Part shown: one piece after another, positions 36,667-52,789 of the stretch
Numbering within the stretch: position 1 is the first letter of the stretch
How the letters are laid out: the number at the start of each line of letters is the position of its first letter
Assembly: GCA_003136555.1 (NCBI GenBank)
Contig: PLEW01000114.1
Span: 1-55,842, forward strand
Direction: 5' to 3'
Source of the DNA: Planctomycetota bacterium
Lineage (GTDB): Bacteria; Planctomycetota; UBA11346
Length of the DNA stretch: 55,842 nt
Made by a program: the position numbers and the translations under genes
The notes under the pieces: generated by a model
Told to the model about the DNA's origin: nothing
Seen by the model: the letters and a program-made list of their open reading frames with translations, nothing else
The model's database searches: none

Positions 36667-38346
36667 TCACTTCTGCCCGACGGTAAACGTCCCCTGGTTG
36701 TGGTCGCCGCGGGTGTCGAACTGCTCGAGCGCCCCATTCGGCTGCAAGGTGAAGCTGTCGGGGATGAAGCCGCCCTTGCCCGGACCCGAGACCACCGCGT
36801 CGTGGCTGTCGACATGCAGGACACCCTTGGCATCGCAGGTCACCGGCGCCTCGTAGGTGACCGAGAGGTTGCCCCAGGAGGTGGTCACCTGCATGGTGCC
36901 CTGCGGGCCCTTGGCGGCCTTGACCAGGAAGAGGGTCTTGTAGCGGTCCCAGGTGCCGGTGTAGAGCCGCGATGGCATCAGCGCCGGCGGCACGCCCTGC
37001 TCGTTGGCGACGTAGGCGATAAGCTCGTCCAGGCGCTGGGTGATGCGCGTCTTGGTGATGCCGGTGATCGATGGGGCGGCCTGGGAATACCAGAACAGCG
37101 AACGCTCCAGGATCGGCTCCCTGGTCGCACCCGATGCCTTGTGTCCGGCATCATACCAGCGATCGGCGAGCTCGACCTGCTGCGGGCCACCGGAGGGCTT
37201 GAGCAGCTCCATCTCGGCGATGGCCTTGCTGTCGTGGTCGCTGCCATGCGCGAGAAGCGGCAGGCCGATGTCCCAGGAGGCGCTGTCGAAGCAGAAGTAT
37301 TTGCCCGCCACGGTGTTCGCATCGGCATCGTCGGGGTTGTCGACCAGCTTGAGGATGGCCTGCGCCACCGGATTCGCCCGCGCCCGTGCGTAGACCTCCT
37401 TCTTCTTGGCCTTGGCGTCGATGCCGGCGAACGACTGGGCCATGAGATCGCAGGCGGTGAATACGCCGTACCAGTCGGACGAGGCGAGGGCCAGGTCGAT
37501 GGCCTCGCTCAGGAGGGCGTACTGGGTGACCGGATCGTCCTTGCTCAGCGGCGCCTGTTCGAGCAGCTTGCCAGCCAGCTCGCGCTTGTCCTTGGCCTTG
37601 GTCTTGGCGAAATCATCCCGGTAGAGCTTGCGGATCGTGGCGATCGCCGTGCGCACGGCGTCCGGCCCGGGGATCGCGGCATGCTGGCCGGGGCCGGCAG
37701 CGGCATCGGAGCGGCTGAACAGGGTCTTCCGCTCGATGTCCTGGTCCTGCTTCAGCTGCGCCATCTCGCGCTGCTGGGCTTCCAGGCTGAGCTTCTGCGC
37801 CGTCAGCGAGACGTCGGTGCCGATGAAGCGCTCGGCGACCTCGAAGTAGTGCACCGAGATCTGCCCATAGTCCTGCGGATGCTCGCGGGCGTACTTCTGC
37901 GCCCGGTCGAGATAGCTGGCCGCCTCCTCCTTGGGGACGGTCTTGGTGGCCACCGCCTCGATCGTCGCCAGGGCCTGGGTGACCCCCTGGTCTCCCTGGT
38001 TCTGCGAGGTGAAGTGCGCGACGTCGTCGGGGGTCATGCGCTTCTTGCACCAGTAGATGTTGGCCTCCAGGTCGCAGACGCGATCGACATCGCCGACCGC
38101 CTGGTAATAGCGGATGGCCTGGGAGAAGGCCACCGCAGCGGCGACCGCGCGGCTGGCATCCGCAGTCGAATCGTGCATCGCCTTGGTGCCGCGGGCGACC
38201 TGGGCCTCGGCGTCGGCCTGGCTCGGCGCAGCTCCCGCGGACGCGGCGCCGGCTGCTGGAGCGGGGGTGGCGGCGGGCTCTGCGGCTGCAGCGAGGCCCA
38301 GCAGGCCGAAGCATGCCGTGGCAAGCGCCAATCGACGTACATCCAT
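36667..38346 (-). CDS. Large secreted helical protein, unknown function
   Basis: A 559-residue protein with a Sec signal peptide (LALATACFGLLGLAAAAE), an Ala/Pro linker, and a long helical region with TPR-like repeats. The repeat segment KDKRELAGKLLEQAPLSKDDPVTQYALLSEAIDLA occurs in secreted planctomycete proteins of unknown role. The C-terminal 130 residues (RLYTGTWDRYKTLFLV onward) form a beta-rich domain of about lipocalin or jelly-roll size. No catalytic motif is seen. The start is the first ATG before the signal; the ribosome binding site is weak. Confidence 0.75.
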   Translation of the reverse strand: MDVRRLALATACFGLLGLAAAAEPAATPAPAAGAASAGAAPSQADAEAQVARGTKAMHDSTADASRAVAAAVAFSQAIRYYQAVGDVDRVCDLEANIYWCKKRMTPDDVAHFTSQNQGDQGVTQALATIEAVATKTVPKEEAASYLDRAQKYAREHPQDYGQISVHYFEVAERFIGTDVSLTAQKLSLEAQQREMAQLKQDQDIERKTLFSRSDAAAGPGQHAAIPGPDAVRTAIATIRKLYRDDFAKTKAKDKRELAGKLLEQAPLSKDDPVTQYALLSEAIDLALASSDWYGVFTACDLMAQSFAGIDAKAKKKEVYARARANPVAQAILKLVDNPDDADANTVAGKYFCFDSASWDIGLPLLAHGSDHDSKAIAEMELLKPSGGPQQVELADRWYDAGHKASGATREPILERSLFWYSQAAPSITGITKTRITQRLDELIAYVANEQGVPPALMPSRLYTGTWDRYKTLFLVKAAKGPQGTMQVTTSWGNLSVTYEAPVTCDAKGVLHVDSHDAVVSGPGKGGFIPDSFTLQPNGALEQFDTRGDHNQGTFTVGQK

Positions 38347-46449: not shown

Positions 46450-47133
46450 ATGGCGAAGATCACGGTGATGTTCGGGTCCGATCCGCAGGGAGAATTCACC
46501 CTGAATAAGGATGAAATGAAGGTCGGACGGGCCACCGATTGCGAGATCGTCGTCGACAACCTGGGTGTCTCCCGCCACCATTGCTCGATCATCAAGCAGG
46601 GCGTGGACTGGGCGGTGGTGGATAAGGGCTCCAACAACGGCACCTATGTCGGCGGGCAGCGGATCACCACGCATGTCCTGCGCAACAATGACCGCGTGGT
46701 GATGGGCAAGCACAGCCTGCTCTACGATGCCACCGGCGTTGCCGAAGCGAACGACAAGAAGAAGGCCGCGGCCGGCATGGGCGGCGAGATGACGATGTTC
46801 GTCGATCAATCGGCGCTGGCCAAGGCGATGGCCGCGGATCCGAACCAGAAGCGCATGGCGATCGGCCTGGACCAGGGCGGCCGGCAAGTCACCGTGCCGC
46901 TGACCAAGGAGGAGACCACCATCGGATCGGGCCCGGCGGACATCCCGGCCAGGGGCTTCCTGGTCAAGCCGGTGCAGATCAAGATCGTCAAAGCGAGCGG
47001 CGGCCACCACCTGATCAACAGCGGCGGGTGGAGGGCGGTGAAGGTGAATGGCGCCAAGGTCAACGACGCCATGCTCAAGGCGGGGGATGTGATCACCCTC
47101 GCCGGCTCGATCTTCACCTATCGCCAGGCGTGA
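46450..47133 (+). CDS. Tandem FHA-domain protein
   Basis: A 227-residue cytosolic protein. The N-terminal FHA domain is canonical: GR at 26-27, SRHH at 41-44 and NNGT at 62-65, the phosphothreonine-binding set. The C-terminal ~90 residues resemble a second, degenerate FHA domain (TTIGSGPADI ... VNGAKV). Between them EMTMFVD places Thr115 in a short linker, a position reminiscent of the phospho-Thr in GarA/OdhI-like FHA proteins, so kinase control is conceivable. No kinase gene is in the window. The start is ATG 46450 with a G-rich upstream sequence. Confidence 0.85.
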   Translation: MAKITVMFGSDPQGEFTLNKDEMKVGRATDCEIVVDNLGVSRHHCSIIKQGVDWAVVDKGSNNGTYVGGQRITTHVLRNNDRVVMGKHSLLYDATGVAEANDKKKAAAGMGGEMTMFVDQSALAKAMAADPNQKRMAIGLDQGGRQVTVPLTKEETTIGSGPADIPARGFLVKPVQIKIVKASGGHHLINSGGWRAVKVNGAKVNDAMLKAGDVITLAGSIFTYRQA

Positions 47134-47251
47134 TGGAGCGTACGCAAAGCCATCTCCGGCCGGCGGTTGGCGGGCGGAGCGTCGCTCTGCGCAGCGATGG
47201 CGCCGGCTGCCAGCGCGGGCACGCGGGCGCTCCTGCCATGAGGATGCCCCG

Positions 47252-48241
47252 GTGACCAGATCGACCCAGCGGGAAGCCGGCAGGAGCACGGGGACGGATG
47301 CCGAACGGTGCCTTGCTCCGGAGCTCGCCGCGACGGCGTACTATCGCGGCAAGGGCGGCGTCCTCTTCGGCGCAGATTGCCTGGCCATCCTGCCCGGCAT
47401 CCGGACGGCGTGCATCGATACGGTCTTCGCCGACCCGCCCTTCAACATCGGCAAGCGCTATGGCGCGCGCACCGACGATGCGCTCCGGGACGACGAATAC
47501 CTGGCCTGGTGCAAGCGCTGGCTTGCAGAATGCGTGCGCATCCTGCGTCCGGGCGGCAGCCTGTTCGTCTACAACCTGCCCAAGTGGAACATCCTGCTCG
47601 GCGCCCATCTGATGGGATTGGGCATGGAGTTCCGCCACTGGATCGCCATCGAGATGAGCGCCTGCCTGCCGATCAGCGGACGCCTGCACCCCAGCCACTA
47701 TGGGCTGCTGTATTTCGCCAAGGGCAGACCGGCGACCTTCAGGAAGATCCGCACCCCGATCGCCGCCTGCCGGCATTGCGGCAAGGACGTCAAGGACTAC
47801 GGCGGCCACCGCGGCGCGCTCAATCCGCTCGGGCTCAACCTCAAGGATGTCTGGACCGATATCGCGCCGGTGCGGCATGCGACCTACAAGTCGATGGCGA
47901 GCCGGCCGAGCAATGCGCTCTCGACCAAGATCCTCGAACGGGTGGTCGAGATGTCGACCCATGCCGGCGACATCGTCGTCGATCCGTTCGGCGGCAGCGG
48001 CACGACCTATGCGGTCTGCGCCGCCAAGGGCCGGCAATGGATCGGCGCCGAGATCGATTACGCCGCCGTCATCGTCGACCGGCTCGAGAACCAGACCGTG
48101 CGTGCGCACGCCAACAGCGACATCATCGATGATGCGGCCCAGGGCCGTGCCGTCGCACCAAGGCCGGCAGCCCGGTCGGCAGCGGCGACGAAGGCCGCTG
48201 CTGCGGCGAGGACCAGGCCGCGGAGCGGGTCCGGCAGGTGA
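47252..48241 (+). CDS. Site-specific DNA methyltransferase, orphan, DPPF type
   Basis: A 329-residue DNA amino-methyltransferase of the beta class: DPPF at 61-64 (motif IV) comes before VDPFGGSGTT (motif I) near residues 245-254. It should methylate adenine N6 or cytosine N4 at a specific site. A CxxC-like segment (CRHCGKD) lies between them. The C-terminal tail is Ala/Arg-rich and unusual. It starts with GTG and is supported by GAGGATG upstream. No restriction endonuclease is adjacent. It is not closely similar to the other methyltransferase at 22.7-23.8 kb. Confidence 0.87.
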   Translation: MTRSTQREAGRSTGTDAERCLAPELAATAYYRGKGGVLFGADCLAILPGIRTACIDTVFADPPFNIGKRYGARTDDALRDDEYLAWCKRWLAECVRILRPGGSLFVYNLPKWNILLGAHLMGLGMEFRHWIAIEMSACLPISGRLHPSHYGLLYFAKGRPATFRKIRTPIAACRHCGKDVKDYGGHRGALNPLGLNLKDVWTDIAPVRHATYKSMASRPSNALSTKILERVVEMSTHAGDIVVDPFGGSGTTYAVCAAKGRQWIGAEIDYAAVIVDRLENQTVRAHANSDIIDDAAQGRAVAPRPAARSAAATKAAAAARTRPRSGSGR

Positions 48242-48382
48242 GCCGCCCGCCCGGTGGCGGGGCTGAGGGGGCGCTCGCACGCGAGTGCCGTACGGAGTAC
48301 CCCGGTGCGGACGAAGGCAGTGGCACCATGGCGCTCTCCACGTAGCCTCCGGTCGACATTCAAGAGCGAGAGGAGAGCGACG

Positions 48383-49633
48383 ATGAGCATGATGCGTGCG
48401 GCAGCCCTGTCGGTGGTGGCGCTCTGCCTGTTCGCCGATGATGGCGATTGGAAGCCGACCCTGAACGAGGCCAAGGCCAAGGACCTGGTGATCAATGGCA
48501 GGGCATGCGAGGTCTTCGAGCACGGGGTGAAGAAGGAATGGGGCTACCAGGCGCCCCAGCAGGACACCTTCATCGTCATCCATCCGAAGACGGAGCGCAG
48601 GGATGCCCCTCTCTATGTCGTCCTGCATTCCGCCGGCCACGACGTCTATTCGTGCGTGAAATGCACCTCGACCGTCGGCAACCACGACATCTACCGCTCG
48701 CCCGACGATTTCTATGCGCTCTATCTCGATTGCCGAGCCAATCATGGCGACTGGTGGTGGGGAGGCATGCATGTCAAGGATGCCAACCTCATCAGGATGA
48801 ACTCCGGTGGAGACCCGACTCCGGTGGAGCGGCGGGTCATGGATACGGTGCGCTGGGTGATGAAGACCTACGCCATCGATCCCAACCGCGTGTACCTGTG
48901 CGGGAACTCGATGGGCGGCAGCGGCACGCTCGGCATCGGCTTGCGCAACGGCGATGTCTTCGCGGCGATCAAGGCCAACGTCCCGGCGGGCATCGAGCAT
49001 GTCTCGAACCGCATGTACTTCCCGCCCAAGGCCGTCCCGGAGTCGCTCAAGCTCGCGGATCCTCCGGTGACGATCGATTACTCGGCGCAGAACGATGACT
49101 GGTCGTCTGGCCACGAGCGCTTCGTCAAGGCGATGAACGACAGGAAGTATGCCCTCTACTTCTATTGGGGCCCCTTCGGCCATGCGAACAACTCCGCCGC
49201 GATCATGAAGGTCAATGATCTGATCAATTCCTTCGACTGGCTGAGCATCAGGAAGAACGAGCCATATGCGGTGTTCACCAATGCCTCGGCCAACAGCGAA
49301 CTGCCCTGGCCCGCCAACCTCGCCAACAAGGCGCCAGGGCAGGTGAACGCCTTCTTCCGCTGGAGGAATGTCAGCGATGCGAAGGACAAGGCCGAGGTGT
49401 CGCTCTTCCTGACCACCCCGGCGGAGCTGAAGACCTCCTTCGCCATCCCGCAGGAGGAGAAGGCGGATGTCTCCCTGCGTCGGCTGCAGCACCTCCAGGT
49501 CAAGCCGGGCGAGACGGTCAACTGGACCTTCGGCTCGGCGTCGGGCTCCTCGGTCGCCGATGCCGAGGGCGTGATCACCGTGCCCGGCCTGACGATCTCC
49601 TCCGCTCCGGTGACGCTGAGCGTGAGCCGGTAG
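48383..49633 (+). CDS. Secreted alpha/beta hydrolase (PHB depolymerase/esterase-like)
   Basis: A 416-residue protein with a short export signal (MRAAALSVVALCLFA). An alpha/beta hydrolase domain carries GNSMGG as nucleophile elbow, VVLHSAGHD at the oxyanion region and PFGHANN with a candidate catalytic His. Similar proteins act as polyhydroxybutyrate depolymerases or carbohydrate esterases. The last ~130 residues form a beta-rich domain. AGGAG is well placed before the ATG. The methyltransferase-like frame on the other strand overlaps it entirely but is not believed. Confidence 0.82.
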   Translation: MSMMRAAALSVVALCLFADDGDWKPTLNEAKAKDLVINGRACEVFEHGVKKEWGYQAPQQDTFIVIHPKTERRDAPLYVVLHSAGHDVYSCVKCTSTVGNHDIYRSPDDFYALYLDCRANHGDWWWGGMHVKDANLIRMNSGGDPTPVERRVMDTVRWVMKTYAIDPNRVYLCGNSMGGSGTLGIGLRNGDVFAAIKANVPAGIEHVSNRMYFPPKAVPESLKLADPPVTIDYSAQNDDWSSGHERFVKAMNDRKYALYFYWGPFGHANNSAAIMKVNDLINSFDWLSIRKNEPYAVFTNASANSELPWPANLANKAPGQVNAFFRWRNVSDAKDKAEVSLFLTTPAELKTSFAIPQEEKADVSLRRLQHLQVKPGETVNWTFGSASGSSVADAEGVITVPGLTISSAPVTLSVSR

Positions 49634-49762
49634 CAGGGGTGGCGGAAGTTGCGCCGCCTTGGCCGCCGGAGCGATGACCGCCCATGGGCCGAGCGGCAGG
49701 CTGTGCTCATGGCGTGACCCGGAGCGACCCTGTGCCGGGCGCCGAGGTGAGCGGCGGGCGTC

Positions 49763-50551
49763 CCGTCGCCGGATCGCGCTGAGCTCGAAGACGATGGGGA
49801 TGTCGCCTTCCAGCCCGTGGACCATCCAGCGATGCGCTTTCACCTTCCGCATCGATCCGCCATCGTAGGGAGAGAACGGGTGCTCGGTGAAGGTGGTGAG
49901 GTCCAGTCCGGCGCGCAGCAGCGCGGTGAGGATGGTGCCGAGCCCATGGTTCCACCAGTATTCGCATCCGCGGATCGTCGCCTTCGGGTCGGCATACGAG
50001 CCCTGGGGCCTGATGATGATCGGCGATCCGCCGCTGTCGTAGGGGTAGCCCACCGTCCTGCCCGCGAGCATCCAGTACACCGGGTGGAAATCGACCAGGT
50101 AGAGCCTGCCGCCGACCCGCAGGTGCGAGGCGACGAGCGAGGACCAGTCCTGCAGGTCATCAAGCCAGCCGAGGACGCCATAGGTCATGTAGACCAGATC
50201 GAAGCGCTCAACGGCATGCCGGGGGAGGCCGGAGATATCGCTGCAGATGAAGGACGTATCCGCCTGCATGTCACGGGACAGCCGGGTGGCGAAGGCGATC
50301 GCTTCCGGGCTGAAATCGACGCCGACGACCGAGGCACCGCGCTTCGCGAGCGATATCGAGTCCATGCCGAAATGGCACATCAGGTGCAGGATGCGCTTGC
50401 CCCGCACATCGCCGATGCCCGCCTTCTCGATTGCGTGCAGCGAACCCCCCGTCTTCCTGAAGCGGGCGACATCGTAGAACGAGGATGCGATATTGATGCG
50501 GAATTTCTGCGCCCAGTTGCGCCGGTTCGCCTTCAGCCGATTCGGCTTCAT
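49763..50551 (-). CDS. Class I SAM-dependent methyltransferase, stop codon missing at the expected place
   Basis: The 262-residue conserved part is a class I methyltransferase: HLMCHFGMDSISLAKRGASVVGVDFS forms the SAM-binding motif I and the following acidic strand, and FDLVYMTYGVLGW gives motif IV. The family normally ends at about FELSAIRR, the left limit given here. In this sequence no stop occurs there; the frame stays open to 47114, antisense through the esterase and DNA methyltransferase genes. Another frame has a stop at 49707. A lost stop or a frameshift is likely. The start is the Met before KPNRLKANRR. The substrate is unknown. Confidence 0.7.
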
Positions 50552-50653
50552 GACCGCCTCCCCGCCAGACCATCCCGCAAAGGCATCCGCCGGGGCCAGC
50601 GCCGTCATGCATGCGTGCGCGGAGCGCATGATCGTGCGGGAAGCCGAGGGCGG

Positions 50654-52051: not shown

Positions 52052-52107
52052 GGCGATCTCCTGGAGGGGGTGTCGATGGCCGGCGGCTGATGGCAGTCGG
52101 CTGCACA

Positions 52108-52136
52108 GGAGACCCGCGGGTGCGATGCTTTATTCC
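52108..52136 (-). promoter_or_regulatory. ECF-type promoter of the metallophosphoesterase operon
   Basis: On the minus strand GGAATAA (52136-52130) and GTCTCC (52113-52108) are separated by 16 bases. The same GGAATAA-N16-GTCT arrangement stands on the plus strand before the sigma factor. The ATG follows about 56 bases downstream. Confidence 0.65.
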
Positions 52137-52196
52137 TGCGTCTTGTGCCCGGTTGCCAGGTGCGCATGGTGGGCCGCGACCGGTCGCCATATGCTG

Positions 52197-52225
52197 GGAA
52201 TAAAACCACCGACATCCGTGTCTGA
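52197..52225 (+). promoter_or_regulatory. ECF-type promoter of the sigma/anti-sigma operon
   Basis: GGAATAA (52197-52203) and GTCTGA (52220-52225) are separated by 16 bases, as in the divergent promoter. The match of both boxes and the spacer argues that the ECF sigma factor transcribes its own operon and the divergent one. Confidence 0.65.
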
Positions 52226-52270
52226 TATGGGAGGAGGGCAGGCGCCCGGCGACCCTCCGACGAGGCGCTG

Positions 52271-52789
52271 ATGGAAGCGGCATTGCGTGAACGGTTCAAC
52301 CAGGCGATCCTGCCGCATCTGGATGCCGCCTACACCCTGGCACGCTGGGTGCTGCGCGACGACCACGATGCCGAGGACGTGGTGCAGGAGGCGATGATCA
52401 AGGCCATGCGCTTCATCGGCGATCTCAAGGGGGCCGATGGTCGTGGGTGGCTGCTGGCCATCGTCCGTACCACCGCGTTCACCTGGCTCCAGCGCCACCG
52501 TCCAGGCGATATCAGCATGAGCACGGCAGCGCTCGAGGTGCAGGAAGCCCCCGGTGGTGCACCGGATGCGGCGCTCCAGCAGGCCGATGCAGCGCAGCAG
52601 CTCGGCGCCGCGCTCGAGCGGCTGCCATTGGAGTTCCGCGAGGTGATCGTCCTGCGTGAACTGCAGGGCCTCTCCTACCAGGCGATCAGCGACATCGTGC
52701 ACAGCCCGATCGGCACGGTGATGTCCCGCCTGTCCCGCGGCCGCGAGCAGCTCGCCCGCGTGCTCGGCTCCCGGGCGACGGAGGTCTAG
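52271..52789 (+). CDS. ECF RNA polymerase sigma factor
   Basis: A 172-residue extracytoplasmic function sigma factor: region 2 is DAEDVVQEAMIKAMRFIGDL..WLLAIVRTTAFTW and region 4 is LPLEFREVIVLRELQGLSYQAISDIVHSPIGTVMSRLSRGRE, with the short linker typical of this group. It should direct RNA polymerase to the GGAATAA-type promoters described above. GAGG lies just upstream of the ATG. The anti-sigma gene follows after one base. Confidence 0.93.
   Translation: MEAALRERFNQAILPHLDAAYTLARWVLRDDHDAEDVVQEAMIKAMRFIGDLKGADGRGWLLAIVRTTAFTWLQRHRPGDISMSTAALEVQEAPGGAPDAALQQADAAQQLGAALERLPLEFREVIVLRELQGLSYQAISDIVHSPIGTVMSRLSRGREQLARVLGSRATEV

Follow-up and report, generated by a model that had tools for sequence, protein, structure and literature searches.

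What reads the DNA between two divergent gene pairs, and which genes does it bring under common control? This is the question raised by a short intergenic region in the window, i.e. the whole stretch of 55,842 nucleotides analysed here, where the genes for an ECF sigma factor and its putative anti-sigma factor point away from those for a metallophosphoesterase and a cytochrome c. In an earlier note on this DNA the element GGAATAA-N16-GTCT was described on both strands with an identical 16-base spacing. We found the boxes and the spacing as described, one copy per strand; the spans given there (52197-52225 and 52136-52108) located the boxes correctly, but their outer ends at 52225 and 52108 were placed 2 bases too far out. 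At a probability of roughly 90% we conclude that the region is a divergent promoter pair of the ECF26 type, read by the adjacent ECF sigma, which drives its own operon as well as the phosphoesterase/cytochrome operon, within a cassette that is probably of horizontal origin.

Table 1. Promoter elements and flanking genes of the divergent region, in window coordinates.
Feature	Position	Strand	Details
ECF26-like promoter of the sigma/anti-sigma operon	52197..52223	+	GGAATAAAACCACCGACATCCGTGTCT; -35 GGAATAA 52197-52203, -10 GTCT 52220-52223
Same promoter, extended -35	starting at 52196	+	GGGAATAAA
ECF26-like promoter of the metallophosphoesterase/cytochrome operon	52110..52136	-	GGAATAAAGCATCGCACCCGCGGGTCT; -35 GGAATAA 52136-52130, -10 GTCT 52113-52110
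ECF sigma factor, 172 aa, regions 2 and 4	52271..52789	+	PF04542 43.1 bits, PF08281 50.2 bits, both above cutoff
Class I anti-sigma factor, 248 aa	52791..53537	+	PF13490 (zf-HC2) 38.2 bits (cutoff 22.2), residues 3-37
Metallophosphoesterase, 308 aa	51125..52051	-	PF00149; twin-arginine signal DRRTLMRLGLSG, read from sequence
PSCyt1 cytochrome c, 150 aa	50654..51106	-	PF07635 57.4 bits; one CWRCH haem motif, read from sequence

The sigma factor is a short protein with sigma-70 regions 2 and 4 only, which places it among the ECF (group 4) sigma factors. The anti-sigma gene begins 1 base past the sigma stop codon, and this position directly after the sigma gene together with the N-terminal zinc-binding domain, which carries HVASCPDC, is that of a class I zf-HC2 anti-sigma factor. 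Measured against the plan of ECF26 anti-sigma factors (N-terminal domain, transmembrane segment, periplasmic C-terminal domain), the zf-HC2 domain was found and one apparent transmembrane segment was read from the sequence by eye. On the other side the metallophosphoesterase is predicted to be periplasmic, and 18 bases separate its stop from the start of the cytochrome gene, and the two are therefore probably co-transcribed. Judged by the distances from the -10 boxes to the start codons on both sides the 5' leaders would be approx. 40-55 bases long, with predicted transcription starts at ~52228-52232 (plus strand) and ~52101-52105 (minus strand); an AGGAGAT site lies ahead of the metallophosphoesterase start. 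Elsewhere in the window a methyltransferase frame (47114-50629, start region ~50552) runs without a stop antisense into a plus-strand gene (48254-49633), possibly owing to a frameshift or an assembly error. For a 558 aa protein (36673-38346) the host genome contains at least five more relatives, at 43-62% identity, and others at 48-49% occur within the genus; its family is expanded in the lineage.

No further exact GGAATAA-N16-GTCT was detected in the rest of the window, in agreement with the earlier note, and none in 100 dinucleotide shuffles. The genome-wide search for GGAATAA-N15-17-GTCT that had been proposed there gave 3 matches in 5,903,037 bases, compared to 0 for the reversed control pattern. 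Two of the three are the pair itself, with start points 61 bases apart, and the third lies on another contig (C223). When the pattern was loosened to GGAATAW-N14-17-GTCT two more genomic sites appeared (control count 1); the first falls inside a long coding frame and the second overlaps such a frame. Since the pair makes up most of the exact sites, and the looser patterns yielded few, no wider regulon is visible in the host genome and no further target is claimed; this genome is 86% complete and other targets may therefore be missing from it.

To place the element in a wider context we used 42 loci with relatives of the window sigma (35-52% identity), taken from genomes and plasmids of Pseudomonadota, Gemmatimonadota and Acidobacteriota. 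GGAATA-N16-19-GT pointed toward the sigma gene in 24 of the 42 loci (reversed motif 0, shuffles 0.6) and occurred on both strands in 17 (reversed motif 0, shuffles 0.015), where the loci include several close relatives, so that counts are not all independent, and the shuffles preserved single-base composition alone. When the -10 box was not presupposed, 44 of the 54 GGAATA boxes located upstream of the sigma genes were followed by GT exactly 17 bases on, against a background of ~5%, while neither 16 nor 18 bases gave a single case (0/54 each). The GGAATA-to-GT distance in the window is likewise 17. The window contains two promoter-like elements with ECF26 geometry, each upstream of an operon, whose place and spacing are conserved with the sigma clade.

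The arrangement of the two copies varies among the relatives. Among the Gemmatimonadota, and in one genome from the same class as a Rhodocyclaceae MAG (L005, L008, L056), the two divergent -35 boxes touch or overlap to form the palindrome TATTCCCGGGAATA, and the two promoters may consequently exclude each other; the boxes in the window are 60 bases apart. The Rhodocyclaceae locus L004 has GTATTGCA instead of GTCT as the -10 of both divergent promoters, suggesting that the promoters of a pair evolve together. The palindromic GGAATA boxes of some Gemmatimonadota loci and the mutually inverted orientation of the elements would also suit a regulator that binds DNA at an inverted repeat with widely separated half-sites, in which case the elements would not be promoters. 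Yet in every copy the GT box is retained, exactly 17 bases on, the distance between the GGAATA boxes is highly variable among loci, some loci have a single copy, and in S. meliloti this two-box element has been mapped as a promoter. We therefore regard a regulator site as extremely improbable and read the elements as promoters.

The mapped ECF26-dependent promoters of S. meliloti comprise a -35 GGAATA and a -10 GT (PMC6180224), the consensus also present in the window, and a related one (-35 GGAAT, -10 CGTC) was described for genes of sulfite-oxidising enzymes (PMC6527743). The promoters of SMc01418-rpoE1 (GGGAATAAATCCATAGCCCTCCGTGTCT) and rpoE4 (GGAATAAGCGAGGCAGCTCGCTCGTCT) display the boxes and the spacing of the window (PMC6180224), with the same GGAATA-to-GT distance of 17, and when SMc01418-rpoE1 (GGGAATAAATCCATAGCCCTCCGTGTCTTATC) was compared to the window (GGGAATAAAACCACCGACATCCGTGTCTGATAT) both boxes, the spacing and CCGTGTCT were in common. 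The earlier proposal that the element defines a promoter specificity for the neighbouring sigma was thus strengthened as far as the promoter pair is concerned, which comparative genomics and the mapped S. meliloti promoters strongly support, but the specificity is not new, because the consensus published for ECF26 sigma factors is GGAATA/GT (PMC6180224).

Beyond the -35 GGAATA and -10 GT/GTCT boxes, the system resembles those of S. meliloti RpoE1, RpoE3, RpoE4 and RpoE6 (PMC6180224, PMC3511301) in its apparently autoregulated sigma/anti-sigma operon with a membrane anti-sigma. A further likeness is that periplasmic cytochrome c, pseudoazurin and sulfite oxidase are among the ECF26 targets in S. 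meliloti (PMC6180224, PMC3511301). The system of the window differs in its partners: where those of S. meliloti have sulfite oxidase, a lipoprotein or a serine protease, it has a metallophosphoesterase and a PSCyt1 cytochrome. A parallel in layout, SMa0142-rpoE6, likewise has the sigma gene divergent from its target and a GGAATA-type promoter mapped for that target (PMC6180224 Table 1); there, however, the target gene encodes a serine protease, the consensus is not seen at the mapped rpoE6 start (Table 1), and a separate GGAATA promoter for ecfR6 lies within rpoE6.

The sigma factor itself shares only ~30% identity with RpoE6 and with an RpoE1-type sigma, being no closer to them than to other ECF sigmas, and in the tree it falls in a clade of 43 sigmas that excludes both (99/94), with ECF26 references that are sparse: RpoE6 from pSymA and one RpoE1-type sigma, located through a site that differs from the S. 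meliloti rpoE1 promoter by 3 mismatches. Its best NCBIfam match is NF009185 (PRK12533) with 190.1 bits over residues 2-168, short of the 248 bits of the curated cutoff. Because of the clade that excludes RpoE1-type and RpoE6, on these sparse references, we named the sigma ECF26-like and not ECF26; the system nevertheless is one that works like an ECF26 system. We infer that both promoters are recognised by this adjacent sigma. Another ECF sigma of the same genome could read the motif instead, the neighbouring sigma being merely one of its targets, since RpoE1 acts on rpoE4 in a cross-activation among the S. meliloti ECF26 sigma factors (PMC6180224) and a first look at the host genome gave 62 candidate relatives of the window sigma. 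This appears quite improbable, as the motif tracks the sigma clade across phyla, adjoining the sigma gene each time, and is almost missing from the rest of the host genome.

The partner genes recur with the sigma as well. A metallophosphoesterase relative was divergent from the sigma gene in 13 loci and the strict promoter pair, including the minus-side copy, was present in 12 of them; the closest phosphoesterase relative found (62% identity) came from Cupriavidus campinensis. The link drawn earlier between the sigma and the metallophosphoesterase and cytochrome genes is in this way strongly supported by comparative genomics. This also bears on whether the sigma-side promoter alone is functional and the minus-strand copy a chance or relict match, as might be suspected from the missing first G of its extended -35 (AGGAATAA, not GGGAATAA). 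With the minus-side copy conserved to this extent, and just three matches in the genome, we consider a chance or relict match highly improbable and take both promoters to be probably functional.

The gene following the phosphoesterase is usually a cupredoxin in the relatives, in some with COX2-like (CuA-type) similarity, and in the window the PSCyt1 cytochrome c fills this slot. YceI occupies it in a Rhodocyclaceae bacterium, and in Gemmatimonadota MAGs the divergent gene itself is a cupredoxin. Small cupredoxins after the phosphoesterase (L048 2491-2877, L065, L058, L071) carry a CxxxCxxxH motif, e.g. CDIFCGxGHE; two of these were scanned and both matched COX2, which indicates a likeness to a free-standing CuA domain. 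In 8 loci the phosphoesterase was upstream and co-directional, forming phosphoesterase-cupredoxin-sigma operons, where our model leads one to expect that the promoter shifts to the front of the phosphoesterase. Before this gene a strict site was found in 2 of the 8, GGGAATAA with an altered -10 in 3, a degenerate GGGAATT element alone in 1 and no element in 2. L096, L098 and L099, all co-directional, keep the -35 GGGAATAAA with a GATC-like -10 in place of GT, which suggests a sub-clade with changed -10 recognition.

A broader reading, offered tentatively and at somewhat less than even odds, is that a sigma of an ECF clade distinct from canonical ECF26, having kept the ECF26 promoter geometry, would control a cross-phylum module. 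This would consist of a Tat-exported metallophosphoesterase and a periplasmic electron carrier that can be exchanged (a cupredoxin or CuA-like cupredoxin in relatives, a PSCyt1 cytochrome c in the window). A divergent, self-activating pair of promoters would drive their transcription when a redox or reactive-species signal arises in the periplasm. In the papers searched, a set outside of which the 2021 ECF re-classification paper falls, none was found that joins such a sigma type with a metallophosphoesterase or cupredoxin, and the module recurring across several phyla seems not to have been described previously.

Neither the sigma nor the phosphoesterase had relatives at comparable scores in the sampled genomes of the host genus, family or phylum, a partial sampling in which several same-genus genomes are incomplete. 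This absence suggests horizontal transfer, and in the phosphoesterase tree the window protein groups with proteobacterial proteins; the cassette was thus probably acquired horizontally. Contamination of the bin is disfavoured, because a different gene on this contig could be matched to relatives within the genus as well as to paralogues in the host genome.

In the mechanism that we propose the membrane anti-sigma would keep the sigma inactive until a probably periplasmic signal lifts this inhibition. The sigma-RNA polymerase would then transcribe more of the sigma's own operon from the plus promoter, a positive autoregulation, and from the minus promoter the Tat-exported metallophosphoesterase and the periplasmic cytochrome c. 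Partner genes in the window and in the relatives encode mostly periplasmic electron carriers, and sulfite-generating compounds are the signal for S. meliloti RpoE1 and RpoE4 (PMC3511301); for these two reasons a redox or sulfur-species signal seems more likely than the general envelope stress proposed in the earlier note.

By this analysis a probable target operon and a promoter are assigned to an uncharacterised sigma in an unstudied host. GGAATA-17-GT with its single spacer length tracks the sigma clade in at least three phyla plus that of the host, and regulons can on this basis be predicted from sequence. The recurrent combination of a periplasmic phosphoesterase and a swappable one-electron carrier provides a lead on what the sigma factors of this clade sense.
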